From Tachypleus tridentatus (taxonomy: Eukaryota; Arthropoda; Merostomata; Xiphosura; Limulidae): a DNA stretch of 64,000 nt. Below the pieces are notes generated by a model. It was not told the origin of the DNA and searched no databases. It was given only the letters and a program-made list of their open reading frames with translations. A program made the position numbers and the translations under genes. This document shows, piece after piece, positions 6,381-61,094 of the stretch; position 1 is the first letter of the stretch, and every line of letters starts with the position of its first letter. Where the stretch lies: the NCBI RefSeq assembly GCF_004210375.1, contig NC_134837.1, positions 160,745,310-160,809,309 on the forward strand, read 5' to 3'.

Positions 6381-6966
6381 ATTCGTTTCTTCTTCCCTAT
6401 TTTATTTAAACGAATATGAGTGGCGAATCAGCACAGGAGTTTCAAAAATCAAACGGATCTCCTAAACCACCTTGTAAAGGATATGGTAAAACTCAGAAGA
6501 AATACTTTTGCAGAATAATACTCTTCAGGGCATGGGTAGTGACTGCAATATTTTTATTTGCTACAGGAATGGTTTTACTCATTTTCGGAGCAATTTACTG
6601 GAAGAAAAGTATAGGTATGTTTCTAGGTGGCGCTTTCTGTCTAGTTTTAGCGGTGCCTGTCACGGCATTTTATCTCTGGTGCACTTATTGTTATGGTGAC
6701 AGTCAAGAAATCCCACAGCACATGGAAAGCGGACAGCTATCAATTGAAAAAGATATATCAACTCTTGAATCTCCTGGTTTTTACAAGCAGAACTTCACAG
6801 AAACAAAGACAGATGTCCCTGTGGAACCGCTTGTTGCCATGACGTCCATCATGTCATCTTCAAATTCTGATGAAAATGAACAATGTTTTAGAGATACGAG
6901 CACTTCACGTGAGCCAGAAAGCAATAAAAGTAGCGCTACTTCAACTCCTGACATTTTAACTCGAAG
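6381..6966 (+). other. Exon with start codon of the two-pass membrane protein gene
   Basis: It begins after TTATTTTTTACAG (AG at 6379-6380), has a 35 bp 5' leader, coding residues 1-183 and two bases of codon 184. It ends before GTGAGT at 6967, so the following intron is phase 2. Confidence 0.8.
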
Positions 6967-9900
6967 GTGAGTTCGAGAGGATTTCCTTTTATAAATATAT
7001 TGCAAAACAGAAAACTAAGTATTTTTTCATGGCTCAGAAAACGTCTCCAACCACAAAATATAATTCCCTCTTCTCTCTATAGTCTCTTCCAGAGCTCAGG
7101 TGAAGTATTAAACAAACAACAAAAAATCCACTATTTTCAAGCTTATCTCAGACCCGTCAAGCGTTAGGTGAAACTTTTCAAAACAAAACTTCTTTTAATC
7201 CCTAAATCACTTCAGCAATCACGACAGCAATCAGATCTTTACCATTGTGGTTAACATAATAGCTAACATCCATCACCACTTGTCCCCTTCTTCTCATCCT
7301 TCGTCATAACTAAGGTAAGGTCTTCAATACCAACAATCATTTGTTCCCTCCTTCTCATCTTTCGTCATGACTAAGGTAAGGTATTTATTATCAACCATCT
7401 TTTGTTCCTTCCATCTTATCCTTCATCATGATTGATGTACAGTCTTAAAATATCATACATCATTTTTTTTCTTTCTTCCCATCTCTCCCGTCATTATCAA
7501 AGTAGCGGCTTACTGATTTTTCTCTAAGAACAAAATCAATACATTAACAACTTTAATAAAGCTTTTGAAACGTTAGTGCTAACCAATTCATGGTAACTTT
7601 ATAAAAGAGTCATAGAATAATTGTATATTTTTATATATCCTGGTTCAAAATTACACTTTTAAATGTACAATAAAATAATCTACAGCGATAAAAAGTAAAT
7701 ACTATAACTATTCCTATAAAGAAATGAAATATTGATCTATCTGTATGTAACTGTAACTGTTATTCGCTTGATTTTTAATTATTTATTTACGTTTTTAACC
7801 TTTTGATACTATTAATGTTTTATAATATAAGTTGTAATACATCTTTTTTTCATAACAGAAGATAAGTGAACACAATATATAATAATGTTTATTACATTTG
7901 TATTTTATGTAGCTTACATGTAGTTACGAAAATATTTTCTCACTTCTTTAAAATTTTATTTTCCTCAAAATTCGTACAAGCTTTATTTCAATTCCTTACA
8001 GTTATTTTGTTCAACCGCGATTTATATCGTAATTTGTTTACTGATAAAAGATGTATAATTTAAGCCACATTCAAACTTTCTACTCGTTTTAGCTTTTGCT
8101 TAGCAAACACAAAAACAACCAAATACAACATATTCTAATTTTATCACTAGGTTTTTCATTCCTACAATACATTATAATAACTTATTTGTATGAAATATGA
8201 AAAGAAAACAGCTCAAATATTGAAATTAATTGTGACTTTGAAAAATCAATACTTCGACGTTAGTTACATAAATGTGTAATACGTAATACACGGCCATCTT
8301 CGGAATTTTGAATCTGCTTAATCTAATACTAACTTTAATGTTATTGATTCAGAGGTTGATCTTTGAACAACGGTCTATGTACTATAGTTTTATATATGGT
8401 TTATTCGATAATTTTAGGATTTTCAGAATTTCTAAATATACGCTTTAAACACCTACATCACTTAATACAGAACATTTGTAAAGGTTCTTGATAATTATAG
8501 AATGTTTTCCAAAACGAATACTTTTGGAAAATAAATGTATTGTTTTAATGAAGAAGAAGAAAAAAACAGTGATACTGATATGTTTGAGAGGCTACAGGAG
8601 TAGTGTTTTTGTTCAGCCCCCGCTGGCAGAGCGGTATGTTTCCAGACATATAAGTCTAGAAACCGGGTTTCAGTACCAATGGTAGACAGAGTATAAATAG
8701 CCTATCCTGTAGCTATGTGCCTAACTACAAATAAACAAAAGTTTTCGTTTAATAACTTATATTATATCACATTTTTACTTTTATTGTTTTAAAACGAGTA
8801 TTTTTTTAATTTTTCTTCTGGGAAAGTTTTCATTGCAATAATTGTTCGTAGTTAACCACAAAGTTGCCGAATGAGTATTCTGTGCTATGCCCAATATCAC
8901 TATTGAAACCGAATCTTTAACTTTATAAGTCCGCAGAATAACCACTGAGAAATTACAGGGCTTTACTGTTGCGAAATTACCCCACAAGTAGCGCTGACTC
9001 ATATCTATTGTTCTACCATTCGAAGTATGTTAGAAGCAAGACTGAAAATAATCATGCTTTCATGTTTGTTGTTCAAAAGCTGAAAGTTCCTTACTAGTAA
9101 TGCTAATTCACTTACTTTTCCTCTTCTGTTGCTAAATCTACGTTAGACCTAAGGTTAACAGTAACCATTAAAATATCATTGTTCAAATACAAAAATTACT
9201 CTTGTGATAATACTGATGTTTTCAGTTTCGTAGTTTTGTCATTAAAGTGAATGAAACCGTAAAAAAGAGTTATTGTGTTATCTTACTGATAAACATATTT
9301 GACTAATAAAATGAACAGATCTAATGACTATTAAATCCAAGAATAACACATTTAAGTATTGAAAATTATTGTACGCCCATATAAGATGTTCTGGTCTTAC
9401 TTAATTCCAAGCAAAGATGTATGACTTGACTGGTATTAGCATCTACACTATTTGTTTATTCTGTAGAACTAAGTATTACAACTGTAATTTCTAACTGTTT
9501 TTTCTTCAATTCATCGAAATAAAAATTACTGTTTTATTCGAACCATTTTATATTTTGAAATTATAGGTTATTTCCTTTAAAAAAGGTTTTAATAGATCCC
9601 AATCTTAACAGCTTTTATTTGCAGTTAAGCCTAGATGTTGAAATAACCAACTCAACAGTTAAGAAAGAAATGAACGTTTCTCAGATATGTCTTGAATTTT
9701 ACGTGATTTGATAACCAAATCAAATATATTTGTGTTTACTAGCTACAGGCTCAGAGCTAAGTGTTCGTTGCCCCTCCAATTAGTTCAGTTTGTCTTTTTG
9801 TTTTTCTATTCGTTTTTGCTTTTATTTTTTTTAGCTTAAACAAATATGTTCGCAAAGATTTATAGCAAATTAAACAACAAATGTGTCTAACTGGGCCTTC

Positions 9901-12900: not shown

Positions 12901-15900
12901 TGAAGCACAACGCAACAACGCCATTGGTCGCTTGGAAGCAGGCGAATCTCGATCAGATGTTGCCAGAGCTGTGAATGTTCACCCAAGCACCATCACAAGG
13001 CTATGGAATCGTCACCAACAACATGGATCAACTCGTGACCGTCCACGATCTGGCAGATCTCGTGTGACCGCGCCTGCACAAGATCGCTACATCCGGTTAC
13101 GTCACTTTTTGGGATAGGACCACCACTGCGACGTCTACTGCCTCAACCATACCAAAGCTGCGTAGGATTTCCGATCAGACCGTACGCAACCGTCGACAAG
13201 ATTCTTAGGCCCCATGTGCAACCCATCATGGTGAACGTTAACGACGTTTTTCAACATGACAACGCCCGTCCTCACACAGACCGACTCACCATTGTCTTCT
13301 TGAGACATCACAACATCAACGTTCTTCCCTGGCCCTCCAGATCACCAGATTTAAACCCCATAGAACATCTTTGGGACGAGTTGGCCGACGTCTGCGACGG
13401 CGACAACCTCAACCGCAGACTCTACCTCAGCTTGCAGCAGCTTTGCAGGCTGAGTGGACAGCCATTCCACAGGATGTGATTCGTCATCTCATCGCTTTAA
13501 TGGGCAGGAGATGCCAAGCAGTTATTGATGCTCACGGGGGGCATACTCGTTATTGACGTTGAGTGACGTTAAACTTCAACTAGTGAGCGTGGACTTCACC
13601 TTTGCAGACTTTGGACGTTCAGCAGTGAATGTGCAAAGTTTCACACATGTCATACAGAACTACCCGGAATAAACTTGTTAACAATTTGTCTCAAATTTTG
13701 CCTTTTGCGTTTCTCTTTTTGAAGAGTATATTAGTTTCCAGTATATATTTAGTTTTAGACAACATATAGCATTAACTCAGTATATTACCAAAATTATGCC
13801 TATATTAATTAATAACCTAACATCCACCTGCAACAGCCCGTACAATCCCTTACTCTTTTATACTCTCATACCTAAGACATGTGTCCGGCAACAGTCACAT
13901 TCCAACTCTCCTTTTCTTAACCTGAAGATTACCTAGGAAGGTCAAAACGTTGTTTTCTACTTATCGATAAAAGTGTCAATACCCATACCAGCCGTTCTGA
14001 GATACACGTCTCTATATATGTTACATTTTATTAATAAAGTGACTTCACACTTTCTGATTAAATACGAAAATGTCTATTTTCTTTTCGATGAAAAAGACTG
14101 AATAACCTCTATTATCGTTTAAGTTGAATTATTGGAATATTTCTGTTATGCTGTTCTTGCTAGAGAAGCTACATAGTGTGTCATTTACTCGTGATCAAAC
14201 TTTTGTGTACATTTTTCTGTGTGATGACCTTATTGAACTCCTATATACGCTTAAAAATGTTACGTAAATAAACTAAAAAGGTTTAGGATATGACATTTCG
14301 GTTAACTGCTTAAACGCAGTAAATACTGAGATGTAATATATCACTGTTAGCTTACACTCAGTAAGAGTAAATGTCTCTTGGGTTTTCAAAACGGCATTGT
14401 TTTCAAACACAGTTTCTATACTAACTGTTTCAACTACTAATTGTAAGTTTTCACCCATAACATTAATCAAAACCAATACCCCTGCCAATTGGAAAATCAT
14501 GGCTGCCAAATGCTGAAGACTGGTTAAAGAGAGGGCTCATTGTACAGACTTGTAAAATTTAACAGATGCTAGATTAAGTCCCATTTGACCAAGCCCACGA
14601 AGTAGGAAAGAAAGTGCTATACGGCCACTGAGACAAATCTTAAAGTAACTTTATTTACATACAAACAGAATAACATGTCTTCAGATATGAGTAGACTATA
14701 GACGTTGATAGGTTGATTTTCCCCCTTTTACTCAAGAAAATATAAAATATGAATAAAATCACTTGATATACTTAATCTTGATTATTTTGTTGTATTGAAG
14801 ATAAAATAATGATGTTGTCGTGAATCTGGATTTTGTGATTTATTAAGAGGAGCAAGTGTGCATGAACATTTTGATTGATTATCTCCATTATAAAATCATA
14901 TATTTCCATCCTAATGAACAAGAGTTTTTTTCAGAATAATAAAGCAATGCCCCGCAACATAATACCTGAAAGTGGTTTGAAGGGCTTCACAGTAACTTTA
15001 ATAATTTTATTTGACAAATGAAACTATCAGATCTTAATGCAAATAAGCTTTAAGGAACATATTGCAATGGACTTCAAAACAACAAGACCCCTTTCCTTAT
15101 TTTTGGAGTCCATAATACGCCGAATCCAGACTATTATGTTCGTGAAAAGCGATTCAGCTCAGCTTTGTTTGGTTTTGAGAAAGCGGTTAACCAATGTACG
15201 TTAACATAACTTATTAAAACAGGTTTTTACTACAAACAGTTTAGTACACTAAGATTATAACACTTGATTTCTATTATCACGATAATATAATCTTTATTGA
15301 CCTCAGTTAAACGTTAATTTCGTTATTCAGCACTTAGGGTAAGATCATATTCATCCGATTATTAATGCTTAACCTCTATCTATTATTTACTAGCATAAGA
15401 TTATAGTAGCTATAATTAATGACAAGTTTTTATTCATCTGCCTAGCATTAAGTATCTATTTGTATTATGCTTAATTCAAACTAATATCGTTAAGCTTCTC
15501 GTGAGTTCGCATTGACATAAGACATGAAGTATTCTTACTTTTATTTGAATATTGTAGTAGAAAAAATTAAAGTATTTGTATTTGAGCTCAATGGCATAGA
15601 AGTAGTATTATCTGAATGATTTAGAGAATACTTAATATTATAAGAGAAAATGTGGGATTTTGTACACATCAAATTTATAGTGTCATTTGTAAATCTGCAG
15701 CACGCTAATTTCTACTTTAGTACGGGGAAATAACGTGATATAATATAAAACTTTCCTACTATATCTCTACTGGTCAAATGCCACCTGAATGTTTCAGCAT
15801 CCTCTGCCACAGTTGAACGTTTGTTTAGCACCGGACACAAAAACCCAGACTTGATAGCTGTTGCCTCATTGACAAGGGATCTGAGAGACTAATATTTCCA

Positions 15901-46816: not shown

Positions 46817-46972
46817 GTACCAGTAGACTTCAAACACTGAATGAGATAGACACACTATTACAGAGACCATTCTCTCACTTTCCAAAAACGTGAGTTGTCT
46901 TGATAACGATTCAACTCCAACTCGGAAGTAGACAAAAAGATGTGTTTTTCAAGTAGCACGTACTGAATTTTA
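46817..46972 (+). other. Probable 5' untranslated part of the exon
   Basis: It starts after the pyrimidine-rich acceptor TACGTTTTCCCCTAG and runs to the ATG at 46973. The upstream noncoding exon was not identified. Confidence 0.4.
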
Positions 46973-47545
46973 ATGGCTCAAAATAATCGAGTTTCTGACA
47001 GCAAACAGTTCAAAAACATCTCAATAAGGAATGATTCATCTGATGGTCAAGGTCCAGGACTTACCTCGGCGGTCAACCGATGCTCATTCAAACCAGAGAA
47101 TATTGGCTCAAATATTCTCATTATAGTTGGCTTGACGCTGAGTTTGGCTGGTGTTGCAATAACAGTGTCAGGGGTTTACACTAAATTTACTCATCCTGAA
47201 ATTAGACCAATAGTTTTAGGAATTGGTCCTTCGTTAATCGGTATTGGAGTGTTTTTTCTTTTCCTCAGACTTTTTTTCTGTCATCCACGATTCTTCAGCG
47301 GCTGTAAAGTGCTGAAAGGCATAAGACAATGGTTTTCATCAAAACGTGTGAGAAACACTGGTATTATGAATATAGGCGCCCAGTCAAAGACAACTTCTAT
47401 TAAAAACTCTTCGCATCAACAACCAACAAGAATTGTCGACACAAAAATAAAACCAACTATACGCTCGACAAGCAAAGCTGGAACTTCTGCGAAGGTGAAT
47501 TTTCTTTCAACAACAGAAGTGAAGGATATCGACATACCCAAATGA
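46973..47545 (+). CDS. Two-pass (hairpin) membrane protein, PIRT-like layout, 190 residues
   Basis: The coding frame is uninterrupted within one exon, probably opening at 46817 after CGTTTTCCCCTAG, with about 156 bp of leader. Residues 1-45 are polar. Helix 1 is about 46-69 and contains GLTLSLAGVAITVSG, a loop of about nine residues follows, and helix 2 is about 79-103 and contains GIGPSLIGIGVFF. The next 30 residues are strongly basic (KVLKGIRQWFSSKRVR). The tail is serine/threonine-rich and ends DIDIPK. The spacing of glycines and the G-P at the start of helix 2, plus the basic stretch, recall the vertebrate phosphoinositide-interacting protein PIRT. That likeness is from memory and weak. 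The gene at 6416 has the same overall design. A weak donor-like AAG|GTGAAT at 47494 leaves open an alternative 3' end. Confidence 0.7.
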   Translation: MAQNNRVSDSKQFKNISIRNDSSDGQGPGLTSAVNRCSFKPENIGSNILIIVGLTLSLAGVAITVSGVYTKFTHPEIRPIVLGIGPSLIGIGVFFLFLRLFFCHPRFFSGCKVLKGIRQWFSSKRVRNTGIMNIGAQSKTTSIKNSSHQQPTRIVDTKIKPTIRSTSKAGTSAKVNFLSTTEVKDIDIPK

Positions 47546-54390: not shown

Positions 54391-54650
54391 CTCATAACTC
54401 TGTTTAAATACCTAAGATTAACAAAACAACGTTGTTTGCTTTGTGCAAATAAACTGGAGAAATTAACACACTCAAAAATTCTTAACTGCTGAAACACATT
54501 TCAATGTATTTAGAATTCTAATAAAGATTAACATCTAAATAATATTATTTTGTATATTCTATATAGAAATAAAGTTACACTTGTTTAAAATTAGTAAGTA
54601 AAAATGAAATATTTGAAGCCTCAGCGAACTTAAAATATCGATTTTTAAAA

Positions 54651-55330
54651 ATGAAAACTGTAAGTGTAAGAACTAGTGGCTACTTAAAATACAACATTAA
54701 GTTTAGAGTCATCCTTACGTGTATAAAAAACACAGTTCTAAGTATAAGAATTAGTGGCTACTTAAAATACAACATTAAGTTTAGAGTCATCCTTGCGTAT
54801 ATTAAAAAGACAGTTGTAAGTATAAAAGTAAGTGGCTACTTATTATACAACTATTATGTACAGAGTCAACTTTATGTACATAAAAACACAGTTGTAAGTA
54901 TAAGAGCGCGTGGCTACTTATCATACAACTATTATGTACATAAAAACACAGTTGTAAGTATAAGAGCGAGTGACTACTTAAAATACAACATTACTTTCAG
55001 AGTCATCCTTGCATATATTAAAAACACATTTGTAAGTATAAAAGCGAATGGCTACTTATCATACAACTATTATGTACAGAGTCAACTTTATGTACATAAA
55101 AACACAGTTGTAAGTATAACAGCGCGTGGCTACTTATCATACAACTATTATGTACATAAAAACACAGTTGTAAGTATAAGAGCGAGTGGCTACTTAAAAT
55201 ACAACATTACTTTCAGAGTCATCCTTGCATATATTAAAAACACATTTGTAAGTATAAAAGCGAATGGCTACTTAAAATACAACATTACGTTCAGAGTCAT
55301 CCTTATGTGCATAAAATACACAGTTACTTG
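54651..55330. repeat. Minisatellite with 78 bp and 60 bp units and a 216 bp higher-order period
   Basis: Units share GTAAGTATAAGAGCGAGTGG, then CTACTTA and a TACAACATTA-like block. They come in three forms: a 78 bp unit with TCAGAGTCATCCTTGCATAT, a 78 bp unit with TATTATGTACAGAGTCAACT, and a 60 bp short form. The order of the three repeats twice (starts at about 54816 and 55032), giving a 216 bp higher-order unit. All lengths are multiples of three, so a 234-codon frame stays open across the array. I do not regard it as a gene. Confidence 0.9.
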
Positions 55331-55395
55331 CAGGGTTATCATACGCACTTATTAATCATCTTTTATATGCAGAATGTTCTATCGCACCCAAAAGT

Positions 55396-58034: not shown

Positions 58035-59480
58035 GAATAAAATGTGTATTCTTGCTACTTCATACAACAGATACGTCACTGGGTGCAACCATTATGTGTT
58101 TCTGTGCAAGTTGACTGTTGAAATATGCGTTGTGAGGTTCATCTTCTTCTGCACAAGATACACGGATAGCTGTAGAAAGGAGCTGTGTGCTTTGGGCATG
58201 AAAGCTTTATGGTGCAGACTTTTAGAAAAAAGACACCACAGAGCTACTATCAATATGCACGGTCGTTAGAGCGAGCATAACTAGACGTGGACTCCCAACT
58301 ACATGGTGAAGCTTCAAAATTGTTTTAATATAATATACTCTATCTCTGTTTAAACATGTTTTATACACATGATTTTATTTTGAATAGAAAGTTATGTTCA
58401 TTAGTGTTTCTTAATGATTGATTAATCAAGTAATCAGTTTAACTAAAAGTAATATTATTTGAAATAAATACTACAACTTTTTTCTGTTCTAAATGTAAAT
58501 AATAGTAGTACCACAGTCATGATCAGTACTATGCTGTTTTTAGTCATTTATATTTTAAATGGAAAAAAAAAATGTGGTTATTTTAGAAACGATATTTGTC
58601 GCTTTTGCTGTTTGAGAAAACGCGTTATACGCGTCGTACAGTTAAAAGCTTTTCACTGTTAGAAAAGTCGCTTTGATTTGTTGGTAGCGATCCCTGTGTA
58701 ATAGAAATGTTCTAATACTGAAACATTATCATCACATTATACTAGATCTACTACGGTATGCTGTGCGTATTTGGAAATATATATCATGTTAGCCAGTTAT
58801 CATGGAAAGGGAGTTAAAACTTTTTACTGGAATCTTTGACATAGTTTTAACAATTTTGAAATGTCGAATTTTAAGCACCTCTCATATTTCAAGAGGTTGT
58901 AATAATACGGTCTACCTACTCTTTGCACGGAAGCGTTTTCTAATTTGAAGGAAAAAATATCCGTGGCAAAGCTTCATGTTTTATATCCTATAAATAATTT
59001 TTCCACTGTTTCAGTTTGATTTGCCTACTATTTGCAGATAATTCAGATCATTCATATAAAATGTATTTTAGGAACCTACGGTGAAATTCAATGCAACATT
59101 ACACGAATCAAACTTACCATATTAGTGCCCTCGTTTAAAAATGCTAACTTTGTCTTTTTCATTCTTTTACTGTTACTTTTTAAACGTCATTAATTTCTCT
59201 CTGTCATGTATCCCTCACAGTTATTCATGTTTCTTGCATTAACATTTTCTATGAATAAAAAAATTCCCCTGTAAATTAACATTCGCAAGATTATTTGGTA
59301 GGTTGAAAATAAAAAATTATTTCGTTATTTTTCGCTGAACTAATTTCAAATATTATTATAAAACAACCACACAAATCCAATAAAACTTATGCACAAAGGT
59401 TTATTTCACAAAGCAGAATCTGAGACTATGGTTACGGAAGTGGGAACGAAATTTTAAAAATAGAATTATGAAACACAAAG
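58035..59480. other. No recognised gene
   Basis: An open frame at 57883-58269 begins inside the SINE and has no family likeness. At 58620-58634 the hexamer ACGCGT occurs twice, 3 bp apart. Otherwise AT-rich. Confidence 0.45.
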
Positions 59481-59483
59481 TCT

Positions 59484-59489
59484 TTTATT
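59484..59489 (-). promoter_or_regulatory. Candidate poly(A) signal of the IGFBP-like gene
   Basis: TTTATT on the plus strand is AATAAA on the coding strand, 82 bp past the stop codon. A second AATAAA lies at 59400-59405. Confidence 0.45.
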
Positions 59490-59570: not shown

Positions 59571-59702
59571 TTATATCCTCAAGCATAAGCTGGAAATTCG
59601 CCCAGTCACAACGTCAGTATATGAATATCCTTCTGGAGGACGGCATAAATATCCATCTTCACAGGACTGTCCTGCGATCATGTTACATGTTTTTCCAGCG
59701 CA
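59571..59702 (-). other. Last coding exon of the IGFBP-like gene
   Basis: Acceptor TTGTGACATTTCAG. It encodes residues 58-100 with five cysteines, then TAA. Confidence 0.9.
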
Positions 59703-60688
59703 CTGAAATGTCACAAAAAGTTGTTTTTGTTCCAAGCAACAATATACATAATAAAAGATAGAAAAACATTTTAAGAAAACTTGACGTACTAATTCTATTC
59801 ATAGTTTCTAGAAACTGTGATTGGAATAAGGTTGAAAACAATTAGTTGCGGCGCAGCTCATTGTACTTGGGGAGCAAGTTAAACTGTGAGCTATTTGAGT
59901 TTGAGTGATATTTTAGTTCCTGCTCATGGATGTTAAAAGTATATATTTAGTTACATGTATGCTTATGAGAACTATCTAGGGCTTCTTGATGAGATATACT
60001 TACAGCGTTACAATATTGACAGCATTTACAGTAGTCCGCGAAGGTACCACAAGAACAGGAACTTGTATCTGGACAATAACTCGTGTCACAGCCCACACTG
60101 CAGTCTGGCTGACTGGTACCCATCACTCTACAAGTTGTTATAAATACCTTTATGTAAATTCTTATCTAACAGTCGTAATGAAATCCAAACACAAACACAT
60201 TAATAACTTTTTGCATTGTTTAAAATGGACGACGTTTCATTATACACGATGCATGTTTTATTTAGATTCATTTATGTAGTAAATTTGGATTTTCGCAGAG
60301 TTTCAGTGATGAATTTCGAAACGAAAAGTTTAAAGCTTTAAAACCTGAATTGAAATCCTAAACTTATACTAAATGCTACATTCTGACTATGTTTTAATTG
60401 TATTTATTTGCAAAGTGTTCGGACTTTTATTTTATTCTGTGTTATATAATTGTGACTCCTCCTTTGTTACATAAGCCAATTATATTATGCCATAATTATA
60501 TTATAGAATTATGTTATATTTACAAAATTGAAATTTGGGACACAAAATCTACAGTGTACTCAGTGCAGATAGCTCACTCTGTAGTTTTTGTCTAAAAAAG
60601 AACTTTTAAAGAAACAAATTATTGCCAAAAATTTAACATACCCATAAACCAAGACGGTGACGGTCACTATTACAAATATCAGCTTCAT
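59571..60688 (-). CDS. Secreted single IGFBP-type domain protein (SIBD-like), 100 residues, three coding exons
   Basis: The coding sequence joins 60688-60642, 60127-60004 and 59702-59571 on the minus strand. Introns have GTATGT/TAG and GTAAGT/CAG borders and phases 2 and 0. Residues 1-19 form a signal peptide (MKLIFVIVTVTVLVYGVMG). The mature part has 14 cysteines at 25, 29, 34, 40, 42, 49, 51, 52, 55, 58, 63, 71, 77 and 97. The block YCKCCQYC is the xCxCCxxC signature of the N-terminal IGFBP domain, followed by the usual CxxxxGxxCxDGxxCxP pattern. Length and layout match spider SIBD-1 and its arthropod relatives, which are haemocyte- or haemolymph-associated. Compared with the 12-cysteine IGFBP pattern, cysteines 42 and 58 are extra and may pair. 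Ligand and function are unknown. Confidence 0.9.
60004..60127 (-). other. Middle coding exon of the IGFBP-like gene
   Basis: Acceptor AACTTGTAG, donor GTAAGTATA. It encodes residues 17-57 plus the last base of codon 16, with nine cysteines. Confidence 0.9.
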
Positions 60689-60701
60689 TTTGCTTCAATA
60701 C
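60642..60701 (-). other. Exon with leader and signal peptide of the IGFBP-like gene
   Basis: It begins after the acceptor CAATTTCTTACAG (AG at plus 60702-60703), has 13 bp of leader, the ATG at 60688, and ends TATGG before GTATGT. Confidence 0.75.
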
Positions 60702-60942
60702 CTGTAAGAAATTGTGGTTATTACGTTTATCTCTGTCTCTGCAGATGAGATTTTAGATTTATGCTGCTTATTATACTTATTTAAATATAATTGAAATAGT
60801 TATAATTCTTAATTAATCCTCATAACAATACCCTTAAAGTAAAACAAGGAAAACAAACATTTTTTTTAAGTTCTGTTCATCTGCCAACTGGGAGGCCAAG
60901 TTTTTCACTGGCTGAGGCGTCTTATAATCTAAGCAAACTTAC

Positions 60943-61037
60943 AGAATATTACTCACTAACCTTTCTAAACTACTTTGTATGCAAGCAAAGACGTAGAGAC
61001 TTAACGTTCTCGTTTACTTTATAGCCTAAGAGTGTGT
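60943..61037 (-). other. Candidate noncoding first exon of the IGFBP-like gene
   Basis: It starts about 27-30 bp past the TATA box and ends at the donor GTAAGTTTG (G at plus 60942). A second possible donor, GTTAGTGAG, lies at 60960. The acceptor before the ATG shows that an upstream exon exists. Confidence 0.45.
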
Positions 61038-61063
61038 GTAAATATACCCAAACTCACGCAGAT

Positions 61064-61071
61064 TATTTATA
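61064..61071 (-). promoter_or_regulatory. TATA box (TATAAATA) of the IGFBP-like gene
   Basis: TATAAATA on the coding strand, with E-box and CCAAT boxes at normal distances upstream. Confidence 0.55.
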
Positions 61072-61088: not shown

Positions 61089-61094
61089 CACGTG
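61089..61094 (-). promoter_or_regulatory. E-box CACGTG
   Basis: Canonical palindromic E-box 18 bp upstream of the TATA box. Binding is inferred. Confidence 0.35.

Follow-up and report, generated by a model that had tools for sequence, protein, structure and literature searches.

A 64,000-nucleotide stretch of the genome of the horseshoe crab Tachypleus tridentatus (hereafter the window) raises the question of whether three tiny minus-strand exons make a working gene for a secreted IGFBP-domain protein, and what such a protein would do. Splicing at GT-AG borders joins coding exons of 47, 124 and 132 nt (the last including the stop codon) into one product of 100 residues with 14 cysteines (Table 1). 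The preliminary description of this DNA had proposed the same exon sizes, matching phases, canonical borders and product length, and the model reproduces all of them exactly. Beyond that description, the present analysis adds a likely noncoding 5' exon behind a TATA box, a set of paralogs, and the recognition of two extra cysteines among the 14. The resulting claim of a complete small secreted IGFBP-domain gene is upheld by its sequence and gene structure, by the paralogs and the pattern of change among them, and by profile searches, and from the sequence we are very confident of the gene and of its IGFBP-type domain.

Table 1. Positions of the gene features in the window and of the paralogous loci in the genome
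Feature	Position	Strand	Remarks
TATA box TATAAA, probable promoter	61066..61071	-	putative start site
Probable noncoding 5' exon	60961..61040	-	approximate ends; putative, from conserved block and shared acceptor
Donor options for noncoding 5' exon	60960 or 60942	-	AAG/GTTAGT or TCT/GTAAGT, respectively
ATG exon	60642..60701	-	coding part 60688-60642 (47 nt); leader MKLIFVIVTVTVLVYG; ends in phase 2
Intron 1	60128..60641	-	514 nt, GT..AG, phase 2
Coding exon 2	60004..60127	-	124 nt; leader end and N-subdomain, cysteines 25-55, CKCCQYC, added Cys42
Intron 2	59703..60003	-	301 nt, GT..AG, phase 0, 2 residues past last CxCCxxC cysteine
Coding exon 3	59571..59702	-	132 nt with stop; C-subdomain, cysteines 58-97, added Cys58, protein end
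Polyadenylation signal AATAAA	59484..59489	-	another one at 59405
L030	C13:167.81 Mb (G000:C13:167806000-167815900)		nearest paralog, 7 Mb from window gene
L031 and L032	C12:60.03 and 60.91 Mb		inverted pair
L033	C9:50.71 Mb
L034	C13:47.92 Mb

At the 5' side, an in-frame TGA at -9 shows the ATG to be the start codon. Over the segment 61174-60974, the window has 70% identity to the upstream sequence of the nearest paralog, L030. Both regions share a CCAAT and a CACGTG element, the latter at 61089-61094 in the window with CCAAT further upstream, and the window copy of this conserved block includes the TATA box. The acceptor TTACAG/GTATTGAAGC, whose last base lies 14 nt before the ATG, is also common to the window gene and L030. 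Given the shared upstream block and the shared acceptor, a noncoding first exon probably belongs to the gene, which would then comprise four exons. Searching six family proteins against the window yielded no second copy of the gene, only a weak 20-residue match (E 0.09).

The predicted protein starts with a hydrophobic leader, judged by eye, and consists of this leader and one IGFBP-type domain, with nothing else. Assuming cleavage after residue 19, the mature part has about 81 residues, with a calculated mass of 8.6 kDa and a pI of 4.4. The xCxCCxxC signature named in the preliminary description is present, its core reading CKCCQYC. In the alignments and codon columns, all twelve cysteine columns of the IGFBP domain are filled, and two further cysteines are added. 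The profile alignment ends before the last cysteine, the assignment of which rests on comparison with IGFBP sequences together with the fold match of exon 3; it follows a G-R turn, as in IGFBP-1 and -5. A complement of twelve cysteines is canonical for the domain, as excerpts of a study of the shrimp domain state (PMC7866140). By sequence comparison, the two beyond this canonical set are Cys42 and Cys58, at the positions of which the spider protein SIBD-1 carries other residues in the alignment of the family profile against the PDB. Cys42 and Cys58 would pair in a seventh disulfide, close to where the two subdomains meet.

A six-frame genome search with the window protein revealed five further loci with paired exon matches. 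Queries with L031, L033 and L034 recovered the same six loci, beyond which only weaker IGFBP exons appeared. The members share 37-60% identity with the window protein, and every paralog has three coding exons, the first of 47 nt, with introns in phase 2 and then phase 0 as in the window gene. The first exon was found by tblastn similarity in L030, L031 and L032 and by a candidate search in L033 and L034, where the two candidates of 47 nt were chosen from six with a phase-2 donor; its length is therefore less independent evidence in these two loci. As a separate observation, L031 and L032 are 98.0% identical over 6163 alignment columns including introns, about 870 kb apart, reflecting either a recent duplication or an assembly effect.

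With exons as short as 47, 124 and 132 nt, one might suspect that short open frames had been joined by chance, but five more loci share the structure and fully shuffled sequences fail to reach the IGFBP score. With a profile built from six further IGFBP domains of the genome, the mature window protein scores 18.9 bits. None of 20000 full shuffles attained this value, and 6 of 20000 did when the cysteines were kept fixed (best, 22.4 bits). The statement in the preliminary description that there was little room for chance is thus borne out, and a chance assembly, refuted by the paralogs and also by the shuffles, is extremely improbable.

The pattern of change among the six loci also bears on whether the gene is alive. 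Thirteen cysteines are invariant in all six, and the fourteenth, Cys42, is present in five; its codon in L030 is TGA. In 11 of the 14 columns, nevertheless, both TGT and TGC occur as the cysteine codon. Synonymous difference exceeds nonsynonymous difference in all 15 pairs (pS > pN), for instance 0.43 against 0.24 between the window gene and L030 (Fisher p 0.004, on rounded counts) and 0.74 against 0.32 between the window gene and L031 (p 1e-9, likewise on rounded counts). Ratios of dN/dS are meaningless in 8 of the 15 pairs due to saturation of the silent distance, and the value of 0.45 for the window gene and L030 mixes in the decay of the latter.

In L030, the TGA lies in exon 2 (5411-5288, minus strand); the locus is otherwise open and has GT-AG borders. 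A selenocysteine reading of this codon was considered and rejected in favor of the simpler one of a dead copy: when L030, L031, L033 and L034 were scanned with Rfam at E <= 1, two chance-like matches appeared, neither of them a SECIS or located in L030, though such a scan could overlook a divergent SECIS. Given a TGA in an otherwise open frame and no SECIS found, L030 is probably a recently dead, decaying copy; hence some copies of the family do decay. The window gene itself could by analogy have died recently while keeping an intact appearance, as the stop codon replacing a conserved cysteine 7 Mb away might suggest. However, its frame, both splice pairs, start context, 14 cysteines and polyadenylation signal are all intact, which makes this reading very unlikely.

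We then asked how firmly the product can be assigned to the IGFBP fold. The Pfam profile IGFBP (PF00219), the search of which had been proposed as a check in the preliminary description, matches the window protein as the sole family, over profile positions 1-55 of 55 and with conserved cysteines, at E 0.024; the score of 15.7 bits, however, is under the curated cut-off of 28 bits. A lack of any IGFBP-domain match with conserved cysteines, which by the preliminary description would have refuted the gene, is thus not observed. IGFBP is likewise the only Pfam family at E <= 1 for all six members, with a best E of 8.6e-5. A profile built from the six rows retrieved eight PDB sequences at E <= 1, headed by HTRA1 (6.4e-4), two SIBD-1 entries (8.1e-3 and 0.010) and IGFBP7 (0.043), and followed by a cystine-knot peptide, two textilinin entries and MLL5. 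An hhalign comparison of this family profile with that of the six further IGFBP domains gave a probability of 95 and E 3.6e-8 over 59 columns. Searched alone against the PDB, the window protein hits an unrelated chain first, with HTRA1 third at 0.04 and SIBD-1 at 0.68. This first match, a carbon monoxide dehydrogenase chain, was regarded as chance; it is gone from the profile search at E <= 1. Exon 3 also resembles MCh-1 and MCh-2, two inhibitor cystine knot peptides, a likeness that was attributed to a common spacing of cysteines.

Structure prediction of exon 3 alone, without an alignment, gave a model with a mean pLDDT of 73.5 and a strand-helix-strand order. Foldseek returned 15 matches at E <= 10, none of them at E <= 0.001. 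The first two are IGFBP complexes, and IGFBP domains account for six of the 15 (1wqj, 7wrq, 2dsp, 3zxc, 2dsq and 1boe; TM up to 0.70), the remainder being mostly knottin-like peptides. The domains of IGFBP-3 and -4 top these matches and that of IGFBP-5 ranks ninth, none being significant by E-value; we take 1wqj and 2dsp/2dsq to be IGFBP-4. The model thus suggests that exon 3 by itself folds like the C-subdomain of IGFBPs, at scores that are not significant by E-value. The exon 2 fragment alone gave a low-confidence helical model (pLDDT 59.8) without a Foldseek match.

Considering all the data, the best overall explanation, to which we assign a probability of about 0.85, is a gene for a secreted protein with a single IGFBP-type domain, in which the 12 defining cysteines are joined by one added pair. 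The exons could instead be part of a larger multidomain protein of the IGFBP-rP1, HTRA or CCN type, and such genes seem to be present in the genome: L035 and L036 combine an IGFBP domain with a second cysteine-rich stretch on one exon, and L001-L008 are presumably CCN-like frames, the domain and family names for L035 and L036 being our assumption as well. In all six loci, however, the stop in exon 3 comes 1-4 residues past the last cysteine, and in the window an AATAAA at 59489 follows the stop. A multidomain fragment was rejected on this shared stop and polyadenylation signal, and is highly improbable.

The single-domain protein is of a known kind; its two extra cysteines make it a variant, not something wholly new. 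The preliminary description named the spider SIBD proteins as the closest family. SIBD-1 of Cupiennius salei (3zxb, 3zxc) indeed resembles the window protein in having one IGFBP domain of about 80 residues, the CxCCxxC motif and a GT...D segment before it, and its entries are the second and third solved-structure matches of the family profile. It differs in the two cysteines added in the horseshoe crab family, and the similarity is low. Moreover, a single-exon IGFBP-domain frame elsewhere in the genome, L052 (C4:51792414-51792587), matches SIBD-1 with E 5.1e-5, better than the window family does, which weakens a reading of the window gene as the SIBD-1 ortholog. The proposed kinship holds in kind.

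The subdomain split is probably not special to the window family, given that a donor-like GT occurs at the same place, two residues after CxCCxxC and in phase 0, in the IGFBP exons L037, L051 and L064, the first of which also has a fitting downstream frame. Judging from these sequences, a phase-0 intron between the subdomains may be common to other IGFBP exons of the genome.

HTRA1 and IGFBP7, the first and fourth PDB matches of the family profile, carry their IGFBP domains as parts of multidomain proteins. With the N-terminal domain of vertebrate IGFBP-3, -4 and -5, the window protein would share the C-subdomain fold; unlike these proteins it has neither linker nor C-terminal thyroglobulin domain, and identity is about 20%. 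The crustacean LvIGFBP2, LvIGFBP3, SIBD-2 and Eriocheir SIBD are described as having a single IGFBP domain, the last of these by title. The shrimp domain has twelve cysteines (PMC7866140, in excerpt) against 14 in the horseshoe crab, a comparison made by description and not by sequence. Short secreted SIBD-1-like proteins of Hydra, compared by description from part of PMC3509713, are also small and single-domain, with about ten remote paralogs; such a gene family is therefore not unique to horseshoe crabs. The excerpts of PMC7866140 also mention a horseshoe crab IGFBP-rp1. A literature search judged by titles found no paper on a horseshoe crab SIBD among those listed, and the gene may already be listed in public horseshoe crab gene predictions.

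For function, we propose a putative model in which the predicted protein would be secreted into the haemolymph, where its C-subdomain, encoded by exon 3 and resembling the IGF-contacting subdomain of true IGFBPs, would hold an insulin-like peptide. The peptide would thereby be buffered or carried, probably in blood cells or plasma, as has been suggested for certain single-domain proteins of crustaceans and spiders. The ligand side is encoded in the same genome, in which 13 matches to insulin-family exons were found. By analogy with true IGFBPs, we would rate binding of insulin-like peptides slightly under evens. A term search for insulin in the main text of four papers on horseshoe crabs (PMC7210998, PMC7815833, PMC9365167 and PMC7878551) found no occurrence. 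Separately, five insulin-family exons of similar score lie within about 2.2 Mb (G000:C13:174.2-176.3 Mb), on the chromosome that also carries the window.

The crustacean literature, as far as excerpts of the sources go, offers several settings for such proteins. Shrimp single-IB-domain proteins are low overall, with LvIGFBP3 mainly in haemocytes (PMC7866140); SIBD2 appears in crayfish claw regeneration (PMC11354258), and a study of disease resistance has SIBD-2 among the genes in which shrimp families differ (PMC8662381). SIBD-2 also belongs to a transglutaminase-positive haemocyte cluster of shrimp, among coagulation-associated genes (PMC9513592). A blood-cell role of the window protein, drawn by analogy, is a slightly more tentative proposal than peptide binding. 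Coagulin-family exons were also noted in the genome, two of which agree with coagulogen (1aoc, from T. tridentatus) at 48 of 51 positions (three differences at the exon edge) and at 48 of 48, respectively; this marks the genome as that of a horseshoe crab, most likely T. tridentatus.

An IGFBP scaffold might alternatively have been kept without insulin-like-peptide binding, as a stable cysteine-rich protein of haemolymph or haemocyte granules in defence or protease regulation. The divergence of the family at 37-60% identity to the window protein, the added cysteines, a locus closer to SIBD-1 elsewhere, the many knottin-like matches lower in the Foldseek results and the coagulation-associated company of shrimp SIBD-2 in one haemocyte cluster are all in keeping with this possibility. 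On the other hand, IGFBP-3 and -4 top the fold matches of exon 3, with IGFBP-5 at rank 9, and Pfam searches of the window protein and the other members found no protease-inhibitor or antimicrobial family. A non-binding scaffold is a plausible alternative that falls somewhat short of an even chance.

Returning to the single-domain secreted protein as a candidate binder, a bolder version would see a xiphosuran branch of single-domain IGFBPs that acquired a seventh disulfide tying the subdomains and then duplicated to at least five apparently intact genes, each of which would hold a different insulin-like peptide in a blood-borne hormone-buffer set. Such a set was not met in the literature searched, and we consider this scenario unlikely. 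If insulin-like peptides were bound at all, chelicerates would have a simple hormone carrier made of one domain. The extra pair of cysteines, being conserved, allows a direct structural test. Small genes of tiny exons that score under library cut-offs are easily lost in annotation, and the window gene is one of a six-locus family of this kind; the medical use of horseshoe crab blood makes it worthwhile to catalogue the small proteins of its plasma and haemocytes.

The rest of the window gave several minor observations, all on the plus strand. Two open frames of about 190 residues, at 6410-6970 and 46967-47545, contain hydrophobic segments and match no trusted Pfam family. For the second, six relatives were found on C13, C2, C9 and C7; these do not adjoin the IGFBP paralogs, and synteny was accordingly dropped as proof of a genome duplication. 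A frame of 260 residues at 54573-55355 is made of a repeated short unit and is probably a tandem repeat, not a gene. Finally, 13039-13479 holds a transposase fragment (DDE_3, Pfam E 3.8e-9).
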